Part shown: piece by piece, positions 17,019 to 39,973 of the stretch
Numbering within the stretch: the first letter of the stretch is position 1
Layout: each line of letters begins with the position of its first letter
Assembly (NCBI GenBank): GCA_026214975.1
Contig: CM047817.1
Coordinates: forward strand, 54,680,246 to 54,744,245
DNA length: 64,000 bases
Source of the DNA: Gentiana macrophylla
Lineage: Eukaryota > Streptophyta > Magnoliopsida > Gentianales > Gentianaceae
Reading direction: 5' to 3'
The notes under the pieces: generated by a model
Databases searched by the model: none
Seen by the model: the letters and a program-made list of their open reading frames with translations, nothing else
What the model was told of the DNA's origin: nothing
Made by a program: the position numbers and the translations under genes

Positions 17019-18443
17019 TGTTGGTCACAGAGAAGGGAAAAACTATAGTCAGAGGGGGGGGGGGGGTGAATGACTATAGTGGAGTTTCAAAAACTTTTCT
17101 TGCACTTAAAAGCTTTTGGGCTGCGGATAAGTCCCTCCTTACTATGTTATTTCAAAGTAGTTTAAGCAATCACAAATATATGATATAATATACGCAATTA
17201 AATAAATACAGTAAGGTAAATTTCAGAAAGTAAATTGACACAAGGCTAAAGTGGTTCAGGATGGTGTAATCCCTTAATCCAATCTTCTCTTGTGATGATC
17301 GGAGGAATTCACTATTGTTTTCACAGATACAATAGTACGATTGTCCTTGACTTCACAAGCTTCACAATCTACAAGACTATCACTCCTTGACTGCAACAAA
17401 TTCAGTGATTCAGTCTCTATCTCTGCTCCTTGGGATCAAATTCTTCAGCAGCTATCACAGACACAACTCCTTCTCAAAAGAATCAGATTCAGTTGCTTGA
17501 TTGATGTGAATTGGATTCAAAAACTTGTTGATCAATCTCAATGCTTGATGTTTGAGTTGTCGCTCTCAGTTTTGAGTTGATCACTAGATGTTTCCTTTTT
17601 GCATAGATAGAAGGCTTTTTTACTTTGACAGAGGTTTTGCTCAGATTTATCGTTCTCGCCTTTTTCTTTATCTTCTTCTATATTTCTTTTTCTGTCATTG
17701 CCCTCTATTTATAGCCTTGATTATTTGATTTGAATTTCCGTCCATTGTCTATATTAATGAGGGGAATAATCCTTGATTTTATTCTTGATTCCCCCTTAAT
17801 TATATTCTCCTTTATTTCAGTGATCGGATTTTTCTTCAAACGTTTATATGAAAATCCGTCCTTATTTGATCCTCTATTGATTGTGCATTTAATGCTTGAT
17901 CTTCTGTATCTTCTTCATATTTGAATAATCTGACTAAGTAAGGTTTGCTCAGCCGTTCTCCGAACGGTTAACTGGTTCATCTGACTTTTCCGCTTCGATC
18001 TTCCTTCACTGCTTTGTCTTCACTCAACCGAAAGTCAGTTTACATTGCCGATTCACTGTTTCCTTCATTCTTTCAATTCAAAGGAGAATCCTTGTACTTC
18101 ACTGATCCTTGATTTGTGTGAGATCAGTGTGCACCATCGTTAAACATTAAGTTTCATCACTTGAAACATAACTTAGACTTATCCAAGGTCATCACAGACT
18201 TCCTTGGTTATAAGTCAGACCATAATACCTTCATTGCTTCTCTGCTGGTACTTGGCTGGTTTCACTATGCCGAAAATCTGTTCTTGCTTTGCCGCCCTAC
18301 CAACTAGTACAATACTTGTCTGACTCAACTTATACAACATGTCAGACTCTAAGTAAAGACTATATAGAGTGTTCTAACTTATTTCAGGCTTGTTATAACA
18401 TCTAGTATGACCACCATCAAAACATAATAAAATGTTCCTATCA
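17019..18443 (-). repeat. 3' LTR of the SIRE-like element
   Basis: A 1425-bp LTR paired with 38555-39973, with scattered substitutions by eye. It contains a run of 13 G at 17054-17066 where the partner has 7, and a minus-strand TATA-like CTATAAATAG at about 17703-17714. The short open frames in it occur in both LTRs and are not genes. Confidence 0.92.
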
Positions 18444-18459
18444 ATTTCCCCCTTTTTGA
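18444..18459 (-). promoter_or_regulatory. Polypurine tract of the SIRE-like element
   Basis: The minus strand reads AAAAAGGGGGAAAT directly next to the 3' LTR. It is the primer site for plus-strand synthesis. Confidence 0.8.
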
Positions 18460-18613: not shown

Positions 18614-20104
18614 TTAAACAGAAGGGCTACTTCTTCTTCTCTTCAAACCTGATGCCTTTGCCTCTTTGGTGCCCTTGCCCTTATCTGTTGGGCTTTCCTT
18701 CTTTCCACTGGAGCTTTCAGGCTTTGAGCTTCCTTCCCCCTTTTTGGCATCACCAAACCGTTCTTCAAGAATCCTGATTGCATCTTCAGATTCAGGGAGG
18801 GGACCATATCTTTTCTCCAGTATCTTGTTGGATGCCTCACCAACTTTGAGAAGGATGTTGAGTTGCTTGCCAAAGTACTCCATGACCTCATCTAGATGCT
18901 GAATTTGATGAGTGTGAGCATTTAGAGTGTCCACCAAGGGTTTGAGATTGTTGTCAATCTTTTCAGTAGGAAATTCAAGATTGGTTTGGATATGGTAGGG
19001 AATAAGATGATGTAAGTTGCAAAGCAAGTTTCCCTATTTTTCCATGGCCTCATCTTGTACCTTGATGTGACTGATGATGGCTTCAATCTTGAGGTTGAGG
19101 GAGGTTGCTTCACTCCTTAAAGTAGCTTTCAGGTTCCGTCTGCTGTGATATTGCTTTTCCATGTCTACAATCAGTGGTTGAATATCCAGATTGAAGGTCC
19201 TCTCTGGATCAATTTCCTCTGGTGCCACTTCAAAATGCTCATCATCTTCGGCTACCTCATCTTCTTCAACTTTATCTTCTTCCTCCTTTTCCTCTTTCTT
19301 TTCACTTTCTGCCTTATCTTCTCTTTCTTCCTCATTAGACTCAGGGTCATTTAGAGGTTGCTATGGAGTGTTGGCTTTTTCATCAGCTGGAGATGCAGAT
19401 GTTCCCTCTTGGTCAATAATGGGGGAGTTGACAGGTTCAGCGGAGTGAGTTTGATCAGCTGGCTCACTTGGTTGTTCGTCAACTTGGCTGTTCGTCATCT
19501 TGTACCTTGATGTGACTGATGAGGGCTTCAATCTTATGGTTTAAGGAGGTTGCGTCACTCCTTAAAGAATTTTCAGTTTTGTCTCATTGTGATACAACTT
19601 CTCCATGTCTACAATCAGTGGTTGAATGTCCAGATTGAAGGTTCTCTCTGGATCAACTTCCTCTGGTGCCACTTCAACATGCTCATCATCTTCATCTTCC
19701 TCCTCTTCTTCAACTTCTTCTTCACTTTCTTTTTCTGCCTCTTCCTCTCTTCCTTTCTCTTCAACTTTAGAATCATTGAGAGGTTGTTTGGGAGTGCTTG
19801 CTTCTCCATGGGTAGAAGATGGCAGGTTTTATTCTCCATGAGCTAGAGACTTGATCTCTTCTACTGGTGGTCCCCCTTGATCAATAGTGGGGGAGTTGAC
19901 AAGTTCAGCGGAGTGATTTTGATCAGCTGGCTCACTTGGCTGTTCGTCAACTTTGCTGATGCTCCTGAAGAGCACCTCTTGAAGTATCTGCTCATCATCA
20001 GAAGTCTCCATGTTTATCGGATCATCTTCAAGATTGTCATCCTCTGAGTGATCATCCTCTGTCTCAGCTTCTCCTTCATCCATCTCATATTCTTCAGATG
20101 GAGT
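18614..20104 (-). pseudogene. Third ORF (env-like position) of the SIRE-like element, 3' part
   Basis: This continues the ORF at 32480-33558 across the Athila insertion: the reading frame reaches the duplicated GGAGT on both sides. It is strongly acidic at first (EDDHSEDDNLEDDP). It then carries Glu/Lys-rich, coiled-coil-like stretches, and its C-terminal end is basic and Ser-rich (SSGKKESPTDKGKGTKEAK, then LKRRRSSPSV). A 445-bp stretch is tandemly duplicated inside it, and a stop at 19829 and frame changes break it. In SIRE elements this ORF is sometimes called env-like, but here I see no clear signal peptide or membrane span. Function is unknown. Confidence 0.7.
19051..19945 (-). repeat. 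445-bp tandem duplication within the third ORF
   Basis: catcttgtaccttgatgtga occurs at 19051 and 19496, and the following ~440 bases match in order. These include tccatgtctacaatcagtgg, tcaacatgctcatcatcttc-like words and ggctcacttgg. The duplicated part encodes the acidic/coiled-coil segment, so the protein gained a repeat before the copies diverged. Confidence 0.8.
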
Positions 20105-20578
20105 TGATGACGGTTAAAATATACCTATTTATGTCATCAATTATAACCTTAAATCGGAGTTAATTATATATATTTCATATTTAATCACGTGTTTATATTT
20201 ATTATTTAATGATAAGTGATTATTAATATGATAATTGGTATTTAAATTTGTTTTTATTATAAAAGAGCAATTAATTGTGTGATAAATGCTGATTTTGCAG
20301 ATCATGATAAATCGGGAAGATAATTATCACGAAATCGGGAGATCTCAAGATAAAAGAGAAGAAAATCGGAGCATTGAAGAAAAGATTAATCAGATCAATT
20401 CAAAAGCATGGAGTGGGGAACAAGTCAGACGAACCGAGTTTGAAAACGCGTAAAGAGGGAGGCTCGGTCAACCGAGCCATGCCATTCGGTCGACCGAGCG
20501 TGTAGGTTCGGTCACCCGAGCCTAAATGTGATAAATGCGTGTCAATATTTTGGATCCTCCCTATGTCGGCTACAACTC

Positions 20579-20588
20579 CTATATAAAC
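20579..20588 (+). promoter_or_regulatory. TATA box, unit 1 of the expanded LTR
   Basis: ctatataaac lies about 95 bases after the unit start and ~30 bases before the conserved gagaaagacacaccactac, a plausible transcription start region. Confidence 0.6.
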
Positions 20589-21457
20589 AGCAGCCACGAT
20601 GCTGAGAAAGACACACCACTACAACACAAAACAATTCATACAATTTTAGCTTTTAAGTTTTTAGTTTTATTTTCTTTATTTTCGTTCATTGTGGATTTAT
20701 CGGATTGTCCGATTAGGGAGCGCATTAAAGAGTGGGAGTCACTCTCGTCTTCGAGGGTATGACTATTCAATTATGCAATCTTTATTCATAGATCTGATGT
20801 ATTTTATTATGGAGTAGTTTTATTTGTATTGGTTGCGTGATGTAGATTTATTTACGAACCCATGTGTTTAGGTTTGAAACGTTAAGAAGTAATCATGATT
20901 TGTACCAACACAGAACTGTGTTCGGTCGACCTAGACGTGTCACTCGGTCGCCCGAGTCTTTGTCGTTCGGTCGACCGAGCGTGGTGATGTGTAGGCAATA
21001 TTATGATCGGCCGACTACGTCGATTCTCCGAATTGGAATGAAAACGAGTAATTAAACTCCGATCAACTTAATTATTTGTCATCATAATTTAACATGAAAC
21101 CCGAAAAGTGATTGTTACTTAGGATATAGATTGAATCGGCATCTAAGAAGTACGCCTTACCCTAGGAATGTTGCTTAGATGAGGTTACGGTTTATACCGG
21201 CATCCCTAGTTTCATAATTGTGTCAGAAGTTATATGAGATGGAGGCATTAAAAAGCAAAGTCACGTAATGGAGGCACGATGATTTAGATGGCCTAACTGG
21301 AGCTAAATCTACCTTAGGGGATGACTCCCGTAGTCATAATAATCAATCTTCAACGTTTGTTATTCGGTCGACCGAGCATGTAGGTTCGGTCACCCGAGCC
21401 TAAATGTGTTAAATGCGTGTCAATCTTTTGGATCCTCCCTATGTCGGCTACAACTCC

Positions 21458-21467
21458 TATATAAGCA
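21458..21467 (+). promoter_or_regulatory. TATA box, unit 2 of the expanded LTR
   Basis: ctatataagc at the equivalent place of the second unit. The following bases (aaagaccacgacgattt) are closer to the 3' LTR version than to units 1 and 3. Confidence 0.6.
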
Positions 21468-22340
21468 AAGACCACGACGATTTGAGAAAGACACACCACT
21501 ACAACACAAAACAATTCATACAATTTTAGCTTTTAAGTTTTTAGTTTTATTTTCTTTATGTTCGTTCATTGTGGATTTATCGGATTCTCCGATTAGGGAG
21601 CGCATTAAAGAGTGGGAGTCACTCTCGTCTTCAAGGGTATGACTATTCAATTATGAAATCTTTATTCATAGATCCGATGTATTTTATTATGGAGTAGTTT
21701 TATTTGTATTGATTGCGTGATGTAGATTTATTTACGAACCCTTGTGTTTAGGTTAGAAACGTTAAGAAGTAATCATGATTTGTACCAACACGTAAGGCGT
21801 GTTCGGTCGACTAGACGTGTCACTCGATCGCCCGAGTCTTTGTCGTTTGGTCGACCGAGCGTGGTGATGTGTGGTAGGCAATATTATGATCGGCTTCGAC
21901 TACGTCGATTCTCTCGAATTGGAATTAAAACGAGTAATTAAACTCGATCAACTTAATTATTTGTCATCATAATTTAACATGAAACCCAAAAAGTGATTGT
22001 TACTTAGGATATAGATTGAATCGGCATCTAAGAAGTACGCCTACCCTAGGAATGTTGCTTAGATGAGGTTACGGTTTATACCGGCATCCCTAGTTTCATA
22101 ATTGTGTCAAAAGTTATATGAGATGGAGGCATTAAAAAGCGAAGTCACGTAATGGAGGCACGATGATTTACATGGCCTAACTGGAGCTAAATCTACCTTA
22201 GGGGATGACTCCCGTAGTCATAATAATCAATCTTCAACGTTTGTTATTCGGTCGACCGAGCGTGTAGGTTCGGTCACCCGAGCCTAAATGTGATAAATGC
22301 GTGTCAATCTTTTGGATCCTCCCTATGTCGGCTACAACTC

Positions 22341-22350
22341 CTATATAAAC
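22341..22350 (+). promoter_or_regulatory. TATA box, unit 3 of the expanded LTR
   Basis: ctatataaac at the equivalent place of the third unit, which is the one nearest the Gag leader. Confidence 0.6.
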
Positions 22351-23467
22351 AACAGCCACGATGCTGAGAAAGACACACCACTACAACACAAAACAATTCA
22401 TACAATTTTAGCTTTTAAGTTTTTAGTTTTATTTTCTTTATGTTCGTTCATTGTGGATTTATCGGATTCTCCGATTAGGGAGCGCATTAAAGAGTGGGAG
22501 TCACTCTCGTCTTCGAGGGTATGACTATTCAATTATGCAATCTTTATTCATAGATCGATGTATTTTATTATGGAGTAGTTTTATTTGTATTGATTGCGTG
22601 ATGTAGATTTATTTTACGAACCCATGTGTTTAGGTTAGAAGCGTTAAGAAGTAATCATGATTTGTACCAACACGAAGCGTGTTCGGTCGACCTAGATGTG
22701 TCACTCGGTCGCCTAGTCTTTGTCGTTCGATCGACCGGCGTGGTGATGTGTAGGGCAATATTATGATCGGCCGACCACGTCGATTCTCTGAATTGGAATT
22801 AAAACGAGTAATTAAAACTGATCAACTTAATTATTTGTCATCATAATTTAACATGAAACCCAAAAAGTGATTGTTACTTAGGATATAGATTGAATCGGCA
22901 TCTAAGAAGTACGCCTTTACCTAGGAATGTTGCTTAGATGAGGTTACGGTTTATACCGGCATCCCTAGTTTCATAATTGTGTCGAAGTTATATGAGATGG
23001 AGGCATTAAAAAGCGAAGTCACGTAATGGAGGCATGATGATTTAGATGGCCTAACTCTGAGCTAAATCTACCTTGGGGATGACTCCCGTAGTCATAATAA
23101 TCAATCTTTAACGTTTGTTTTATCTCGTAATCATCCTAATTCACATGGGGAGTTATAATCTACTAGCGTAATCAATACTATTTGTTTAGATAATATCAAC
23201 CGCTTTATCCGTGTTTTAGTAGTCTTTAGTCTGCTCTTTGTGGTTTTTGTGTCTTGTGGTTGTCACTACTTTATTTATTGCATTTAGTTGGTCGTAGACC
23301 GCCCCTTTCAATTTAGTTCTAATAGGATAAAGTTGTGTTTTATTTGTGCCGAGTCTCTGTGGGATCGACCTCGACTCTATCGACTATACTCTGATTGAAC
23401 CTAGTTCTCTTGCTAGTGTGTTAGTAGGCATCGAGTTAATAATTTAACTTGACCTCCATCAAGTTTT

Positions 23468-23483
23468 TGGCGCCATTGCCGGG
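23468..23483 (+). promoter_or_regulatory. Primer binding site of the Athila-like element
   Basis: TGGCGCCATTGCCGGG starts six bases after the LTR. It matches the TGGCGCC(G/A)TTGCCGGGG primer site typical of Athila elements. Confidence 0.85.
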
Positions 23484-23799
23484 ACTCGAGTCATTAAATT
23501 AAGATATAGCTTATTTTGTTAGAAATCGATTCGTGAATATTCGTGAATAAGAGTCCATACATTAAAAAGATTGTCGTAAAAATAATTAAAAAAAAAAAAG
23601 CGTTCGGTCGACCGAACCACGGCTCTCGATCGACCGAGAATTTATTTTTTTTCTGCTTTGCTCGTATTAGTTTTAAAACATTCTGCTTCTGTTTACGTTT
23701 TCTTTTCTCAAATTTATTTCGAGTCTGTTTTAGTTAGTTAGTTAAAGGCCTAGCCTTTACTAGTGATTAATTGTTTTATTGTTGTTTATTATTTTATAG
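23484..23799 (+). other. Untranslated leader of the Athila-like element
   Basis: 316 bases between the primer site and the first open Gag frame. It holds an A-rich run (23588-23599) and then another pair of the palindromic gttcggtcgaccgaac-type words (23601-23640) also found in the LTR. The text just before Gag (ttgtttattattttatag) looks like a 3' splice site. Confidence 0.5.
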
Positions 23800-25346
23800 T
23801 ACGCTACTCGGAAATCGAAGGAACCGCTTGAGCCATATAATCCTGAGATAGAGAAATTTGCAAGAAGGAATAGGAAGTTAGCTAGGGAGCTGGCTAAGCA
23901 AGGAGAAGAGGATCCAAATCTTGAGGAAAGCGAGCAAGGAGTGGAAGAAGGACATACAACCGATCATTCTGAGCATTCTGAATCTGAAACGGAAATGGAA
24001 GGAAATCCAGTCAATCCAAACCAGGTACCTAATCCTGTTATTAATAATGCCAATAATGTGAATGCAAATGCTAATAATGAGAACCAAGCCCTAGTTCAAG
24101 GAGCGAGGCGTACTTTGCAAAGTTATGCAACGCCAACTATTGAACAATTCATTCCCGCTATCGTAGCACCACAAGATGCTGCGGAAGTCTATCACCCTAG
24201 GCCTAATGTAATTCAAATGGTGACCAACTATTCCACTTTTCATGGAATTCAGAACGAGGATCCTGGTGTTCACGTAACAAATTTCTTGGAAATCGTCAAG
24301 ACAAATGAAACTGAATTAATCCCGGAGGGAACATTAAATCTTAAGCTTTTTCCTTTCACTTTGAAAGATAAAGCTAAGCAATGGCTTCTCTCTTAGAAAT
24401 TTGGATCTATCACAACTTGGGAACAATTGTTGCAAAAATTCATGAATAAGTATTTTCCCTTAGGAAAAACTTTTAAGTTACGCCAAGACATCCTAGGATT
24501 TAAGCAACAACCTGGGGAGAGTTTTGATCAAGCTTGGGAGCGTTTCAAGGAAGCTATGAGGAAGTGTCCTCATCATGACATCTCTCTTTGGCTTTTAATA
24601 CAAACTTTTTACCATGGGTTGAGAGAGACTGAGAAAATTAGAGTAGACGCCTCCAGCAATGGAGCGTTTGTTCTTTTATCTCCTGAGGAGGCACAAGGGA
24701 AGATGGAGCAAATAGCGATGAATAGCCAATGGGGAGGCAATGACATAGCCACTGTGAAGATGGCCACTGACATATTTGATGATAGTGCATCTACCAAAAT
24801 CTTAGAACAACTTTCTGTTATCAACAATAAGGTAGATGGGATGCAAGAGAGGATGACAAGAGTAGAGAAAGGGGCTAGAATCGAGGTAGCACCTCAAAGT
24901 GAGAATGCTGGTACTGAAGAAGCCAATTATATCGGGGGAGGGTGCAGGCCTAATCATAACCATCCGGATTCCGATATAGTGACATTAATGCGGGAGAAAG
25001 GCCTAAACCACGCCGCTTATGTACCATGTGCCAGACTAAAACTTATGGTTGGGGAAGCTGCGATAGAAAAAGCGAGTAATGTAAATCACCGACAATATGG
25101 GACAACTTTCAAAATCTATGCATTTGAACTAGCCACTAACTTTAGCCAATATTGTCGAAGACCGATGCTAAGGTGACCAATCAGGAAGCTCTAGTCCAAA
25201 ATCTCACGCACCAGGTAGGACAACTAGCTGAGCAAGTCTCAACTAGACCTCCTGGAGGGTTGCCAAGCAACACTGAAAAGAACCCTAAGGATTTGAATGC
25301 GATCATGACAAGAAGTGGAAAAGAAGTAACTCCACCATCCCTGTAA
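23800..25346 (+). pseudogene. Gag of the Athila-like element
   Basis: The frame is open from 23800 with a basic N terminus (FARRNRKLARELAKQ). No ATG is evident there. The Gag core runs through PNVIQMVTNYSTFHGIQNED and the TAG at 24394, within WLLS-(stop)-KFGSIT. It continues with LQKFMNKYFPLGKT and RQDILGFKQQPGESFDQAWE. A frameshift near 25140-25180 leads to the Gag C terminus (LTHQVGQLAEQ, IMTRSGKEV), which stops at 25344. The order and motifs are those of Athila Gag. The protein would form particles, but this copy cannot make a full one. Confidence 0.85.
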
Positions 25347-26315
25347 GAGAAGGCCGCAAAGGATAAGGATGGTGATCCAAGCAATGAGACCAATACTTCC
25401 GAGACTTTGCCTGAGCAAAGAACATATAAAGAACCTGCTGGCCCTAGAGTTGAATTTTACGCTAACAAGTATCCAATTTTCACTGATGTCGATCCTTCAA
25501 CTCTACCTTATCCTCCACCAAAGCCGAAGCCTAAGTTTGATAATAAGAGGTATAAGAAGTTTGTGGATATGTTTAGTAAGTTACAAATCAATATACCCCT
25601 AGTTGAAGCACTAGCTGAAATGCCTGAGTACACCAAGTTTTTAAAAGACGCTGTCTCAACTAAAAGGAAACTTCTAGATTTAGAGACCATATGCCTGAAT
25701 GAGGAATGCTCAGCCATTCTTCAACATAAGTTACCCCCAAAATGCAAAGATCCGGGAAGCTTTCTCATTCCCTGCACCATAGGTAACGTATGTCTAAACA
25801 AAGCTTTGTGTGATCTAGGAGCAAGTGTGAACCTGATGCCACTATCTATTTTTCGGAAGCTAGGCATGAAAGATCTTAAGAAGACCTCAATGACACTGCA
25901 ATTAGCTGACCGTTCTGTCAAAGAACCGTGTGGAGTGGTTGAGGATGTGCTAGTAAGGGTTGAGAAGTTTGTATTTCCTGTCGACTTTGTGGTATTAGAT
26001 ATGGAAGCTAACTACGAAGTTCCCTTGATATTAGGGAGACCTTTCATGGCCACTAGTAGGACGCTAATTGATGTTTACAAAGGCGAGTTGGTATTAAGAG
26101 TGAACGAAGAGAGAGTTGCATTCAATGTCTTCGACACTATGAAACAACCTGATGATGGAGAGGATGCATGTTTCATGTTGGATTCGACTGATAGGATCGT
26201 TCAAGAATTTCAACAACATGAAAATATCAAGGATTTTTTGGATGCTGTCTTAGAAGAAGAAGATGAAGTCAAGTACGTGAGTAGAGGAGGAGAAGATGAT
26301 ATGGCCAGGATGTAG
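25347..26315 (+). pseudogene. Protease region of the Athila-like element
   Basis: A 302-residue open frame (from 25407, in the same frame as the Gag C terminus). It carries a Pro-rich linker (LPYPPPKPKPKFDNKRYKKF), a helical segment, and the aspartic protease motif LCDLGASVNLMPLSIF at about 25810-25850. The later LILGRPFMATSRTLIDV is the usual end of the fold. DLGA in place of D[ST]GA is normal for Athila elements. It is one of the best preserved parts of this copy. Confidence 0.88.
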
Positions 26316-27945
26316 TAGAGGGACCCCAAGACCTGTAGAGGAAGTAAGTGCCGCGGAGATTGAAAGATTCTATCATAGACCAACGTGGCATAAGTACTTC
26401 GAACTCAAACTCACAGGTCAAAAGTTGAAGACATCTTTGAAAGAACCTCCCACAAATTTGACTTTAAAACCTCTTCCTGCAAATTTGAAGTACGTATTTC
26501 TTCAAGATGAGACCTTGCCACTGATCATATCTTCTTCCTTGACGGACTTACAAGAGGAAAAACTCATGAGAGTTTTGAGAGAGTACCGCGGAGCATTTGG
26601 ATGGACCATAACTGACGTTAAGGGTATTAGTCATAGCGTATGTATGCACAAAATCTCTGTGGACCCTGAAAAGAAAGCGGTTGCACAACCTCAAAGGCGT
26701 TTAACCCCATAATTAAAGGACGTGGTTAGAGATGAGGTTATAAAAATGCTAGAAATGGGAATTATATTTCCAATTTCTGATAGCGAATGGGTTAGCCCTA
26801 TCCACGTAGTTCCCAAAAAGGGAGGATTGACGGTGCAAGCCAATGAGTTGAATGAGTTAATTCCTGTGAGGCTAATCACCGGTCATCGAGTATGCATAGA
26901 CTTTAGGAAACTAAATGATGCAACTCGTAAGGACCATTTTCCTCTTCCCTTCATCGATCAAATGCTCGAGAGACTGAGTGGGCATGCTTTCTATTGTTTT
27001 CTCGACGGATATTCGGGATACTATCAAATCGACATCTCGCCTGAAGATCGTGAGAAAACAACGTTTACATGCCCATATGGGACATTTGCGTATAATCGAA
27101 TGCCATTTGGATTGTGTAACGCCCCCACGACATTTCAACGATGTATGATGTCATTATTCGCGGATATGGTGGAAGACTTCTTGGAAATCTTTATGGATGA
27201 TTTCTCCGTGTTTGGAGACGATTTCGATTCATGTCTCACACATCTAGCACGAGTTTTGAAGAGATGTGAAGAGACTAATCTTGTGCTAAATTGGGAGAAG
27301 TGTCATTTGATGGTTACAGAAGGTATAGTACTAGGCCACCGCATATCAAAGAACGGTATAGAGGTGGATAGGGCCAAAGTTGAGGTGATCGAGAAATTAC
27401 CTCCACCTACTAATCTTAAAACTTTGCGAGGTTTTTTAGGCCACGCCGGATTTTATCGTAGGTTTATCAAGGACTTTTCCTTAATCTCTAGACCTCTTAC
27501 CGAATTATTGGCCAAGGATGTGTCATTCATGTTTTCCAATGAGTGCATAAAAGCTTTCAACGAAATAAAAAGTAGGCTGATCATTGCACCCGTTCTGGTC
27601 GCACCGGATTGGGATCTTCCGTTTGAGCTGATGTGTGATGCAAGTGATACTGCTGTTGGCGCCGCTTTGGGTCAAAGAAAAGATAAGATTTTTAGGCCCA
27701 TTTATTATGCAAGCCGGACTTTGAATGCTGCCCAAAGAAATTACGCCACAACGGAGAAGGAACTTTTAGCCGTTATCTTTGCTTTTGACAAGTTTAGATC
27801 TTACTTAGTGGGATCTAAAGTCATGTGGTGGGTGACCATGCGGCTCTTAAGTATCTCCTAGCAAAGCAAGATTCAAAGCCGAGATCTGTTGAGATGGATT
27901 CTACCGTGCAAGAATTTGGCGTAGAAATCCGAGATAAGAAAGGAA
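26296..27945 (+). pseudogene. Reverse transcriptase and RNase H of the Athila-like element
   Basis: The frame begins in frame 1 overlapping the protease end. It has a stop at 26710 (RLTP-stop-LKDVV) and then an intact 379-residue stretch. Motifs: WVSPIHVVPKKGG, RVCIDFRKLNDATRKDHFPL, FLDGYSGYYQIDISPEDREK, MPFGLCNAPTTFQRCM, the catalytic FMDDFSVFG (near 27192-27220), and LRGFLGHAGFYRRFI. RNase H starts around 27630 (MCDASDTAVGAALGQ) and continues with FRPIYYASRTLNAAQ and TTEKELLAVIFAF. A frameshift near 27820 breaks its last part (KYLLAKQDSKPR is in another frame). Confidence 0.92.
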
Positions 27946-29413
27946 GTGAGAACGTGGTGGCCGATCATCTATCGCTTACAATTAGAGGATGGTGAGGAAT
28001 TACCTGAGATAGGAGAATCGTTTCCTGATGAACAACTTTTCTCCATCACCACCATCGGGGGACATGATGATTGTGTTGCAGTTTCTTCGCGAATTGAGGT
28101 TGTGCAGGAGAAGAAGCAACCATGGTTTGGTTTGTTTGTCAATTATCTATCCGCAAAGTACCTACCACCAAATCTCACTGTCCAAGAAAGGAAAAAATTC
28201 TTTAAAGATCTTAGACACTACTATTGGGATGAGCCTTATTTGTTTAAGCTAGGATCGATAATATTTTTGAAGGTGTGTGCCGAAGAAGAGTATAATGATA
28301 TCCTGAAGCATTGTCATTCCTATGAAGTTGGAGGACACTACGGGGAGAAAAAACCGCGGCTAAGGTCCTCCAATGCGGTTTTTATTGGCCGACATTGTTT
28401 AAGGATGCACACCAATATGCAAAGGCATGTCATGCTTGTCAAATGACATGTAATATTTCAAGGAGGAATGAGATGCCACTCAAGAGCATCTTTGAAGTAG
28501 AACTTTTTGATGTTTGGGGAATAGATTTCGTTGGACCCTTCACTTCATCACTATCTAACCGATATATCTTAGTTGCTGTTGATTATGTTTCCAAATGGGT
28601 TGAGGCCATTGCTTCCCCTACTAACGATGCTAGGGTTGTGGTTAGATTCTTGAAGAAGAACATTTTTACAAGGTTTGGGACGCCTAGGGCGATTATAAGT
28701 GACAATGGTAGTCATTTTTGCAATAAACCCTTTGAAAGGCTGATGATTAAGTATGGGGTTCGACACAAGCTAGCAACCGCCTATCACCCCCAGACTAGTG
28801 GTCAGGTAGAAGTCACCAATCGAGAGATAAAGCGTATCCTGGAGAAAACGTCAATGCGACTAGGAAGGATTGGTCGTTACGTTTTAGACGACGCTTTATG
28901 GGCTTATAGGATCGCATATAAAACCTCGATTGGAATGTCGCCGCATGTGAGATTGTTTTTGGAAAGGCATGTCATCTACCCGTGGAGGCCGAGCACCGGG
29001 CCATGTGGGCAACAAGGATGCTAAATTTTGATGAGACGTTGGCCGGTGAGAAAAGGATGTTAGAATTAACTCGCCTGGAGGAGTTTCGTTTAGAGGCATA
29101 TGAGAATGCCAAAATTTTCAAGGAGCGCACGAAGAAGTTTCATGACAAAAAGATTCTGGAGAGGACCTTTCAAGAAGGTGATATGGTTCTATTATACAAT
29201 TCGCGCTTAAGACTCTTCCCGGCTAAGTTGAAATCAAGATGGTATGGCCCATTTCAAGTACAAAAAGTCTTTCCTTCTGGAGCGGTGGAGCTATTCAATT
29301 TCAAAGACGAGTCAGATTTGTGGTCAATGGACATCGTATTAAGCATTATCACGGGCTTCCGCTTTCTTGCTTTGAGGAGGAGGTTTTGTACCTCGATGAC
29401 CCCCTGTCTATGA
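27946..29413 (+). pseudogene. Integrase of the Athila-like element
   Basis: The zinc-binding HHCC region lies near 28305-28440 ([12 protein letters not shown], then CHACQM) and is split by a frameshift. The catalytic core at 28395-29024 retains the three acidic residues in [19 protein letters not shown] and [12 protein letters not shown] frameshift near 28960 leads to the C-terminal domain at 28982-29413. That part ends with EGDMVLLYNSRLRLFPAKLK and RWYGPFQVQKVFPSGAVEL. The gene is broken in at least two places. Confidence 0.9.
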
Positions 29414-30872
29414 ATAAACCATCTTGAACTGAGTCGAGCTAGCGACTATAAACTTAGAACTACTACCTATACCTATCTTTTTCGTTTTTTCTTTTTAATA
29501 AAGTAGCATGCGCCTATCACGGTTTTTTTTATCTCGCCATGTTCCGAGTCTAAGTTCGGCATAAACGAGGTTTTTTCCTTGATAGCCGTCATGTGAGTTT
29601 TTATTTAGGTTTAAATCCCTTTTGGTCTTGTCCGTGGCAGTATAAAGTAAAGTGGCTTAAACTGTTTTTAGATATCTATATCTAATTACTGCCACATTAT
29701 TTTATAACTTCCATAGACATGGTATTTGATGATTTCGTGGAGCTTGTTTGTTTATACAGGATGTGTCTGTCTCTCCACGCTGTGCCGATGATTACTCCGA
29801 TGTTGTTCCTTTACTTGGGAGCCGTTTCCAGAGCTAAGTCTTTCATCTTGAACTCTCATTTATTTTTGTCATTGAGGGAAATGCCATGTTTAAGTGGGGG
29901 GCAAGGGACTTAGCTATAGGTTGAAAATATATAGTCAAAGGAGCGAGTACTGAGACAATATTGAGCCAAATTTAAAAATTTTATGGATAAATGCCAAGTT
30001 GTTTAACTCGTACCCTTAAACTTGTGAAGTTCTTATACTTAGAATTGATAAGAAATGAACCAAGTTGCGTGAGTACGTGGTCATATTATACTTTTGCGAT
30101 AAATTGTTAGTAAACTTAAGGATATTCATGCCAACAATTGCAAGTAGTTAGGTATTGTTCAAATTACTCAAATTGTGAATCGTTTGGTCACGCATGAGTT
30201 ATAATAATTGAAAGAAGTATGTGTACATTGCGTAGATAATTGGTTATGAGGACCTAGTGTCGATATTTGTCGACTGATGTATTCTAATCTTCTAGCCAAC
30301 AAAAGCGGAGTAATAAGCTTGGGACGTACCTGTGTTTTGACAATGCATTAAAACACTGGGCTTGTAGTAACATTACCAAAGTAGCCCCGCGCTTGTGGTA
30401 ATATTCGATGCTATGCTTAATCTAAGATAGGGGGATACTCTATAAGGTTTTCTTCCTTGAGATTAGTAGTATTCGACAAATATGCAAAAAGATTGAAAAA
30501 CATTTCGAAGTTTTAGAGGCTTTGAGTAGTACTCGGTCTCCAAGTCCAAAACCCTATAGATACGCTCTTGCTTATTGTTCTAGTGCTTTAACCATCATGA
30601 GGCATAAGAAGTATGAATCTTGATGTTGGTGAATTTAGATATGAAGTCTGCATAAACTCTAATCATGCTACATTTATATAAAACCAATGCACATGCACAC
30701 AATCACTTCGATTCATAGCGAGTAGTGACAATGCTTATCTTGTGAGCATGACTGGTATGAGTAGACTCGGGTTTCTTGTGTAAGTATGAGTTGACCATAG
30801 AAAATGTTGTCTTGGGGAATAACTTGTTGATGCTTTGTTCGGGACGAAGCAAAGTTTAAGTGGGGGGCATTT
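29414..30872 (+). other. Non-coding region between integrase and 3' LTR of the Athila-like element
   Basis: 1.46 kb with no long frame on either strand. Many Athila relatives carry an env-like ORF here; none is visible. The phrase gtttaagtggggggca occurs twice, at about 29888-29904 and 30854-30870. The second is the true polypurine tract, so the first is an internal copy of it. Confidence 0.7.
30855..30872 (+). promoter_or_regulatory. Polypurine tract of the Athila-like element
   Basis: tttaagtggggggcattt ends exactly at the 3' LTR start (TGATGACGG). It primes plus-strand synthesis. Confidence 0.85.
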
Positions 30873-32474
30873 TGATGACGGTTAAAATATACCTATTTAT
30901 GTCATCAATTATAACCTTAAATCGGAGTTAATTATATATATTTCATATTTAATCACGTGTTTATATTTATTATTTAATGATAAGTGATTATTAATATGAT
31001 AATTGGTATTTAGCTGTTTTTATTATAAAAGAGCAATTAATTGTGTGATAAATGCTGATTTTGTAGATCATGATAAATCGGGAAGATAATTATCACGAAA
31101 TCGGGAGATCTCAAGATAAAAGAGAATAAAATCGGAGCATTGAAGAAAATATTAATCAGATCAATTCAAAAGCATGGAGTGGGGAAAAATTCAGACGAAC
31201 CGAGTTTGAAAACGCGTAAAGAGGGAGGCTCGGTCGACCGAGCCATGCCATTCGGTCGACCGAAGCGTGTAGGTTCGGTCACCCGAGCCTAAATGTGATA
31301 AATGCGTGTCAATCTTTTGGATCCTCCCATGTCGGCTACAACTCCTATATAAGCAAAGCAGACCACGATCTTTGAGAAAGACACACCACTACAACACAAA
31401 ACAATTCATACAATTTTAGCTTTTAAGTTTTTAGTTTTATTTTCTTTATGTTCGTTCATTGTGGATTTATCGGATTCTCCGATTAGGGAGCGCATTAAAG
31501 AGTGGGAGTCACTCTCGTCTTCGAGGGTATGACTATTCAATTATGCAATCTTTATTCATAGATCTGATGTATTTTATTATGGAGTAGTTTTATTTGTATT
31601 GATTGCGTGATGTAGATATATTTACGAACCCATGTGTTTAGGTTAGAAACGTTAAGAAGTAATCATGATTTGTACCAACACAGAACTGTGTTCGGTCGAC
31701 CTAGACGTGTCACTCGGTCGCCCGAGTGCTGTCGTTCGGTCGACCGAGCGTGGTGATGTGTAGGGCAATATTATGATCGGCCGACTCACGTCGATTCTCT
31801 CGAATTGGAATTAAAACGAGTAATTAAACCTGATCAACTTAATTATTTGTCATCATAATTTAACATGAAACCCAAAAAGTGATTGTTACTTAGGATATAG
31901 ATTGAATCGGCATCTAAGAAGTACGCCTTACCCTAGGAATGTTGCTTAGATGAGGTTACGGTTTATACCGGCATCCCTAGTTTCATAATTGTGTCAGAAG
32001 TTATATGAGATGGAGGCATTAAAAAGCGAAGTCACGTAATGGAGGCACGATGATTTAGATGGCCTAACTGGAGCTAAATCTACCTTAGGGGATGACTCCC
32101 GTAGTCATAATAATCAATCTTTAACGTTTGTTTTATCTCGTAATCATCCTAATTCACATGGGGGAGTTATAATCTACTAGCGTAATCAATACTATTTGTT
32201 TAGATAATATCAACCGTTTTATCCGTGTTTTAGTAGTCTTTAGTCTGTCTTTGTGGTTTTTGTGTCTTGTGGTTGTCACTACTTTATTTACTGCATTTAG
32301 TTGGTCGTAGACCGCCCTTTCAATTTAGTTCTAATAGGATAAAGTTGTGTTTTATTTGTGCCGAGTCTCTGTGGGATCGACCTCGACTATATCTGACTAT
32401 ACTACAGTTGAACCTAGTTCTCTTGCTAGTGTGTTAGTAGGCATCGAGTTAATAATTTAACTTGACCTCCATCA
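30873..32474 (+). repeat. 3' LTR of the Athila-like element (single-unit form)
   Basis: 1602 bp with one copy of the ~880-bp unit (31250-32132). TATA box tatataag at about 31346-31354. It ends CCATCA before the target duplication GGAGT. Compared with the 5' LTR it shows small indels and substitutions in addition to the missing units. Confidence 0.93.
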
Positions 32475-32479
32475 GGAGT

Positions 32480-38554: not shown

Positions 38555-39973
38555 TGTTGGTACCAGAGAAGGGTAAAACTATGGTCATCGGGGGGGTGAA
38601 TGACTATAGTTGAGTTTCAAAAACTATTCTTGCACCTAAAAGCTTTTGGGCAGCGGATAAGTCCCTCCTTACAATGTTATTTCAAAGTAGTTTAAGCAAT
38701 CACAAATATATGATATAATATACGCAATTAAATAAATGCAGTAAGGTAAATTTCAGAAAGTAAATTGACACAAGGCTTATAGTGGTTCAGGGTGGTGTAA
38801 TCCCTTAATCCACTCTTTTCCTGTGATGATCGGAGGAATTCACTATTGTTTTCACAGATACAATAGTACGATTGTCCTTGACATCACAAGCTTCACAATC
38901 TACAAGACTATCACTCCTTGACTGCAACAGCTTCAGTGATTCAGTCTCTATCTCTGCTCCTTGGGATCAAATCCTTCAGCAGCTATCATAGACACAACTC
39001 ATTCTCTGATGACTCTGATTCAGTTGCTTGATTGATGTGAATTAGATTCACAAACTTGTTGATCAATCTCAATGCTTGATGTTTGAGTTGTAGCTCTCAA
39101 TTTTGAGTTGATCACTAGATGTTTCCGTTTTGCACAGATAGAAGGCTTTTTTTACTTTGACAGAGTTTTGCTCAGATTTATCGTTCTCGCCTTTTTCTTT
39201 ATCTTCTTCTATATTTCTTTTTCTGTCATTGCCCTCTATTTATAGCCTTGATTATTTGATTTGAATTTCCGTCCATTGTCTATATTAATGAGGGGAATAA
39301 TCCTTGATTTTATTCTTGATTCCCCCTTAATTATATTCTCCTTGATTTCAGTGATCGGATTTTTCTTCAAACGTTTATATGAAAATCCATCCTTGTTTGA
39401 TCCTCTATTGATTGTGCATTTAATGCTTGATCTTCTGTATCTTCTTCATATTTGAATAATTTGACTAAGTAAGGTTTGCTCAGCCGTTTCCGAACGGTTA
39501 ACTGGTTCATCTGACTTTTCCGCTTCGATCTTCCTTCACTGCTTTGTCTTCACTCAACCGAAAGTCAGTTTACTTTGCCGATTCACTGTTTCCTTCAATC
39601 TTTCAATTCAAAGGAGAATCCTTGTACTTCACTGATCCTTGATTTGTGTGTGATCAGTGTGCACCATAGTTAAACATTAAGTTTCATCACTTGAAACATA
39701 ACTTAGACTTATCCAAGGTCATCACAGACTTCCTTGGTTATAAGTCAGACCATAATACCTTCATTGCTTCTCTGCTGGTACTTGGTTGGCTTCACTATGC
39801 CGAAAATCTGTTCTTGCTTTGCCGCCCTACCAACTAGTACAATACTTGTCTGACTCAACTTATACAACATGTCAGACTCTATGTAAAGACTATATAGAGT
39901 GTTCTAACTTATTTCAGGCTTGTTATAACATCTAGTATGACCACCATCAAAACATATTAAAATGTTCCTAACA
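38555..39973 (-). repeat. 5' LTR of the SIRE-like element
   Basis: 1419 bp, paired with 17019-18443. Ends are TGTTGG and CTAACA on the plus strand, followed by the target duplication ATACA. Confidence 0.93.
39234..39244 (-). promoter_or_regulatory. TATA box of the SIRE-like 5' LTR
   Basis: The minus strand reads GGCTATAAATAGAGGG within the LTR, conserved in the other LTR at about 17703-17714. This is the likely promoter. Confidence 0.6.

Follow-up and report, generated by a model that had tools for sequence, protein, structure and literature searches.

Three tandem TATA-bearing units in one LTR of a Ty3/gypsy-type insertion of Gentiana macrophylla

Anatomy of the insertion and its unequal LTRs

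We analyzed a 64,000-nucleotide stretch of Gentiana macrophylla DNA (the window), in which positions 20105-32474 consist of a single insertion of a Ty3/gypsy-type LTR retrotransposon, bounded on each side by a perfect 5-bp TSD, GGAGT. The element shows the features of this class, namely TG...CA LTR ends, a short TSD, a primer-binding site, a polypurine tract and, as determined with Pfam, the Ty3/gypsy domain order of gag, protease, reverse transcriptase (RT)-RNase H and integrase. The primer-binding site, TGGCGCCATTGCCGGGA, resembles what we take to be the complement of the 3' end of plant tRNA-Asp, as matched by eye. The reading frames of the element are interrupted and this copy therefore looks defective, allowing for possible base errors in the assembly. 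The features are as follows.

20100-20104, plus strand: left copy of the TSD, GGAGT, directly outside the 5' LTR
20105-23461, plus strand: 5' LTR with three tandem units, 3357 bp, ends TGATGA...CCATCA
20105-20483, plus strand: left flank of the 5' LTR, single copy, 379 bp
20484-21361, plus strand: unit U1, 878 bp, TATATAA at 20580
21362-22245, plus strand: unit U2, 884 bp, TATATAA at 21458
22246-23119, plus strand: unit U3, 874 bp, TATATAA at 22342
23120-23461, plus strand: right flank of the 5' LTR, single copy, 342 bp
23468-23484, plus strand: primer-binding site TGGCGCCATTGCCGGGA, adjoining the 5' LTR (by eye)
24427-25176, plus strand: gag fragment, PF03732 (Pfam)
25407-26315, plus strand: aspartyl protease fragment, PF13650 (Pfam)
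26722-27861, plus strand: reverse transcriptase and RNase H, PF00078 and PF17919 (Pfam)
28395-29024, plus strand: integrase core, PF00665 (Pfam), downstream of RT as in Ty3/gypsy
30858-30867, plus strand: polypurine tract AAGTGGGGGG, adjoining the 3' LTR (by eye)
30873-32474, plus strand: 3' LTR with one unit, 1602 bp, ends TGATGA...CCATCA
31250-32132, plus strand: unit V of the 3' LTR, 883 bp, TATATAA at 31346
32475-32479, plus strand: right copy of the TSD, GGAGT, directly outside the 3' LTR

As demonstrated by self-alignment, the flanks and units of the 5' LTR listed above are matched in the 3' LTR by a left flank of 377 bp, the single unit V and a right flank of 342 bp. A sequence-only reading of this DNA had given LTR lengths of 3357 and 1602 bp and explained the difference of 1755 bp by two extra head-to-tail copies of an ~880-bp TATA-bearing unit in the 5' LTR; all three lengths proved exact, and the explanation agrees with the self-alignment and with the one TATATAA found in each of U1, U2, U3 and V. 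The four units share pairwise identities of 94.9-97.0% (BLAST), far above chance, and the unit, which begins 96 bp upstream of its TATA box and ends 342 bp short of the LTR end, lies wholly inside the LTR. The three TATA boxes are presumably passengers of the repeated segment; the earlier suggestion that the 5' LTR could drive several RNAs of different length is one that the presence of three such boxes would allow. Additionally, 12-bp palindromes resembling TCGGTCGACCGA recur within the LTRs and immediately downstream of the 5' LTR (20464-22738, 23604-23637 and 31230-31747), with several copies per unit that are often about 22 bp apart. There are 23 matches with at most two mismatches in the window against 0.44 expected, and these palindromes are possibly a protein-binding array.

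The insertion lies in an older Ty1/copia-type element (17019-39973, RVT_2 on the minus strand), whose LTRs at about 17019-18445 and 38555-39973 are 96% identical and which has its own 5-bp duplication, ATACA, recognized by eye. The only match in an Rfam search was to the plant snoRNA family snoR71 (24475-24581, minus strand, 52.8 bits against a threshold of 40), which lies on the antisense strand of the gag region and outside both LTRs; this Rfam family may contain retrotransposon sequence. Searches of plasmid and viral sequence collections gave no match. Among the matches listed, the named protein relatives come almost all from plants, and a close relative of the plant RT of this element is labelled Salmonella enterica in its public source, which is probably contamination.

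Unit number and sequence variation across the LTR family

We searched the whole host assembly (1.79 Gb) for the unit-unit junction, allowing up to two mismatches, and for the normal boundary between unit and right flank. The boundary pattern has 1030 matches in the genome. The junction pattern has three, two of which are those of this 5' LTR, while the third belongs to another sequence (locus L011) whose alignment to the unit spans 111 columns only, at 78% identity; thus no other LTR with this unit-unit junction is present in the assembly. This genome-wide count covers the one junction, and other breakpoints were sought in 113 other LTR loci, a sample of at least 1030 that was drawn from among the matches listed and is biased towards LTRs that resemble V closely or match the boundary exactly. 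Of these loci, which include L072-L124 for the census only, 106 are complete and contain one unit each, the remaining 7 are partial, and a second unit, defined as at least 100 bp of unit covered twice, was found in 0/113. The search for copies with one, two or three units that the sequence-only reading had proposed thus returned single-unit LTRs in all complete loci, and none with two or three units among the 113. For the relatives examined, the family has a single-unit LTR of ~1.6 kb, the form that the 3' LTR retains. Since every complete relative examined has one unit, it is the 5' LTR that gained two; expansion of the 5' LTR, one of the histories put forward earlier, is borne out by this census and by a junction private to the locus in the assembly. 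Later transposition would be expected to have seeded two- or three-unit LTRs elsewhere through transcripts starting in U1 or U2, and none with this junction is present in the assembly. In one further family LTR (L117, G000:C8:109005846-109008346) about 475 bp are missing inside the unit, showing that the unit also undergoes internal deletions.

We then compared the four units with the LTRs fetched by region. In a FastTree analysis with 58 of these 60 LTRs (L050, which is interrupted, and L055, which is truncated, were left out), based on the unit after removal of the blocks that vary most (LTR positions 474-503 and 800-935), U1, U2, U3 and V form one clade with a support of 0.95. V is placed inside the U1-U3 units with a support of 0.74, and not outside a U1-U3 clade. 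A mosaic of family alleles had been suggested by one block behind the TATA box and another around alignment columns 435-441, and also by what looked like reciprocal mosaics of U1 and U3 in V and U2. This reading was dropped, since such blocks differ within the LTR pairs of other elements and the differences concentrate at CAG/CTG; compensatory hairpins considered by eye in the mosaic-looking blocks were dropped on the same evidence.

The CAG/CTG effect is apparent among LTR pairs of the family. Within 18 LTR pairs (L050 and the pair L012/L013, with a flank divergence of 7.7%, were left out), differences at CAG/CTG amount to 0.157 per base versus 0.040 overall. CAG/CTG sites differ between paired LTRs in 166/560 directional comparisons versus 123/2143 for CAT/ATG, a descriptive ratio, since each pair enters twice, once per direction, and motif sites can overlap, which makes the counts non-independent. 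Of the 166 differences, 127 are indels or multi-base changes and 15 are single C-to-T or G-to-A changes. For the TATA-block, bin, masked-change and pair comparisons, L050 was left out of the alignment, leaving 59 other LTRs. Among the five 25-bp bins of LTR positions 801-925, within-pair differences are near or above between-element differences in three (0.152 vs 0.166, 0.234 vs 0.208 and 0.162 vs 0.188) and less than half of them in the other two. Examples in the window lie at 31346-31372, 31678-31690 and 31725-31735, such as TGCTG versus TCTTTG (18-19 family pairs among L012-L049). These differences probably reflect systematic read error at presumably methylated sites, or otherwise a mutational hotspot. 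A rate about four times above average between paired LTRs matters for LTR dating in such assemblies.

Junctions, timing and alternative origins

The two unit-unit junctions are located as follows.

21351-21363, plus strand: first junction, join between 21361 and 21362, T-to-C at 21351
22235-22247, plus strand: second junction, join between 22245 and 22246, T-to-C at 22235

Both junctions are identical in sequence, with AACGTTTGTT directly followed by ATTCGGTCGACC. In a comparison by eye of the U1/U2 join with its two parental edges in V, no bases or microhomology shared between these edges were seen, and the founding join was therefore probably illegitimate. The T-to-C change ten bases before the junction occurs in U1 and U2 only; U3, V and 59/59 other LTRs have T. 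Since the second junction is identical to the first including this private change, the pattern suggests one illegitimate join that was copied once by homology. Specifically, an LTR segment of ~880 bp would have been joined head to tail around the time of insertion, and the resulting two-unit LTR would have grown to three units by a homology-driven step that carried the junction and the T-to-C along. Unequal crossing-over, replication slippage and circle integration would each fit the two identical junctions equally well.

In the sequence-only reading, an expansion after insertion had been one of the options. The raw counts are 15 substitutions of 717 between the flanks of the two LTRs and, of about 872, 24-27 between V and the U units and 25-32 among the U units. 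Dating by raw unit divergence was dropped in favour of columns with CAG/CTG and gap neighbourhoods masked, in which the flanks differ at 5/593, V and the U units at 4-9 of 682, and the U units among themselves at 12-15 of 682. Across these 682 columns, the private changes number 8 in U1, 7 in U2, 4 in U3 and 0 in V; none unites U1-U3 against V, and one, the T-to-C, unites U1 and U2. The unmasked changes common to U1-U3 against V and the family majority all fall in a single CTG block around alignment columns 482-484. Under a shared history of U1-U3 covering half of the time since insertion, the absence of any common change would have a probability of 0.04. Since no change outside error-prone sites unites U1-U3 against V, the amplification appears to fall near insertion, and the split of the units looks about as old as the insertion itself and not clearly later.

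The distances are uneven in other respects. The ratio of mean U-U to mean V-U distance is 1.9 (bootstrap 1.7-2.0, masked), which taken alone would put the unit split before insertion, and the difference between U-U and flank divergence (5/593) is not significant (p 0.15). Private changes are significantly fewer in V (0/682) than in the U units (19/2046; Fisher p 0.006), which points to an uneven clock or to consensus errors in the array. Similarly lopsided LTR pairs occur in other elements, for example with 5 to 0 and 1 to 7 changes in the unit. For 35/47 unmasked single-unit substitutions, the state is also seen in at least one of the 59 other LTRs, so recurrent change, conversion from other copies or cross-mapped consensus contributes to them.

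On balance, the findings favor, with a probability of about 0.62, a tandem amplification that is private to this locus and would have occurred in the 5' LTR of a single Ty3/gypsy-type copy at about the time it inserted, the copy number being that of the assembly. An unlikely alternative, which still deserves attention, is that the asymmetry was born in reverse transcription, when a cDNA intermediate joined and slipped between units, giving one three-unit and one one-unit LTR. The two LTRs of a retrotransposon are completed by separate synthesis steps, and a slip in one is possible. A split simultaneous with insertion is what the data resemble, in that the U units diverge from one another no less than they do from V and nothing outside error-prone sites unites U1-U3 against V; however, a duplication right after insertion would give the same pattern, and the sequence bears no mark of a template switch, for the start of the unit lies 96 bp upstream of the TATA box and not at the transcription start that this box predicts. 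If the asymmetry did arise in this way, the locus would represent a natural departure from the LTR identity expected at insertion and would lead LTR dating astray.

It is distinctly improbable that one or two units were added by the assembler or inflated by consensus errors. The differences at CAG/CTG between paired LTRs (166/560 against 123/2143 at CAT/ATG, with 127/166 indel or multi-base) do point to systematic read errors, and the larger number of private changes in the U units than in V is in line with an artefact. Yet the junction offers no homology that an assembler could use and is present twice identically, changes private to each unit remain once the masked sites are set aside, and the array of about 2.6 kb is short relative to long reads, on which the assembly was presumably built.

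Returning to the amplification at this locus, we rejected its mirror image, also raised in the sequence-only reading, in which the parent had three-unit LTRs and the 3' LTR found here shrank to a single unit. Contraction would allow U-U distances that are not smaller than V-U distances, as found here, but it is very hard to reconcile with the single unit of every complete relative examined, with 0/113 other LTR loci having a second unit and with a junction found nowhere else in the assembly; moreover, none of the changes seen in U1, U2 or U3 in the masked comparison occurs in V. The further proposal that the two LTRs came from different RNA templates, the units being alleles of different family members, is scarcely credible and not needed, because the four units form one clade outside the variable blocks; just after the TATA box U1 and U3 do carry one common family sequence type and U2 and V another, but this block is a poor marker of templates, as it differs within 12/19 LTR pairs of other elements, in some by one base only, and the within-pair differences, like the mosaic-looking blocks, center on error-prone CAG/CTG sites.

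Parallels among LTR-derived repeats

The array is a new case of LTR-derived tandem repeats, a kind already known. The closest parallel is given by CRM1TR and CRM4TR, tandem repeats derived from the maize centromeric retrotransposons of the Ty3/gypsy type (Sharma et al. 2013, PMC3648361). The CRM4TR units include the TATA box of the LTR and are transcribed, with three cDNAs that begin 18, 40 and 43 nt past this box. According to that paper, no short direct repeats of the kind that a single illegitimate recombination would require were found at the founding junction of CRM1TR and CRM4TR, and gene conversion was proposed as the main route of growth, unequal exchange not being excluded (PMC3648361). 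The present array likewise consists of head-to-tail units cut from a Ty3/gypsy element, here three units with two identical junctions; its unit includes the LTR TATA box, as in CRM4TR, and its founding junction is without shared homology, as judged by eye. Unlike CRM1TR and CRM4TR, whose units are described there as part of the LTR plus UTR, the present unit lies wholly within the LTR, both ends of which are intact, as is the TSD. The array resembles an early stage of the CRM1TR/CRM4TR kind. It presents an LTR-derived array at the three-unit stage in an intact, datable insertion, with a readable founding junction and more than 100 unamplified sister LTRs, and it illustrates how an LTR can give rise to satellite-like arrays.

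Two other systems are also comparable. LTR12 (ERV9) LTRs contain 5-17 tandem 41-nt U3 repeats (PMC11853044), so that there too the number of tandem repeats within an LTR is variable and the promoter region is involved; the LTR12 repeats are short enhancers shared family-wide, whereas the ~880-bp unit described here is private and includes the TATA box. Among the titles and abstract openings returned by a literature search on LTRs of unequal length and on tandem repeats in LTRs, none describes the present case, which is weak evidence of absence. Cassandra arrays are tandems of the form LTR-internal-LTR-internal, attributed partly to unequal crossing-over (PMC7215508). They share with the present case the tandem growth of LTR retrotransposon sequence, but their repeat comprises the LTR plus the internal domain, and here no internal sequence is repeated. 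Within the present element family, four LTRs (L052-L055, G000:C1:10083492-10112515) stand in a row about 9 kb apart, which suggests an LTR-internal-LTR-internal-LTR-internal-LTR tandem of whole elements.
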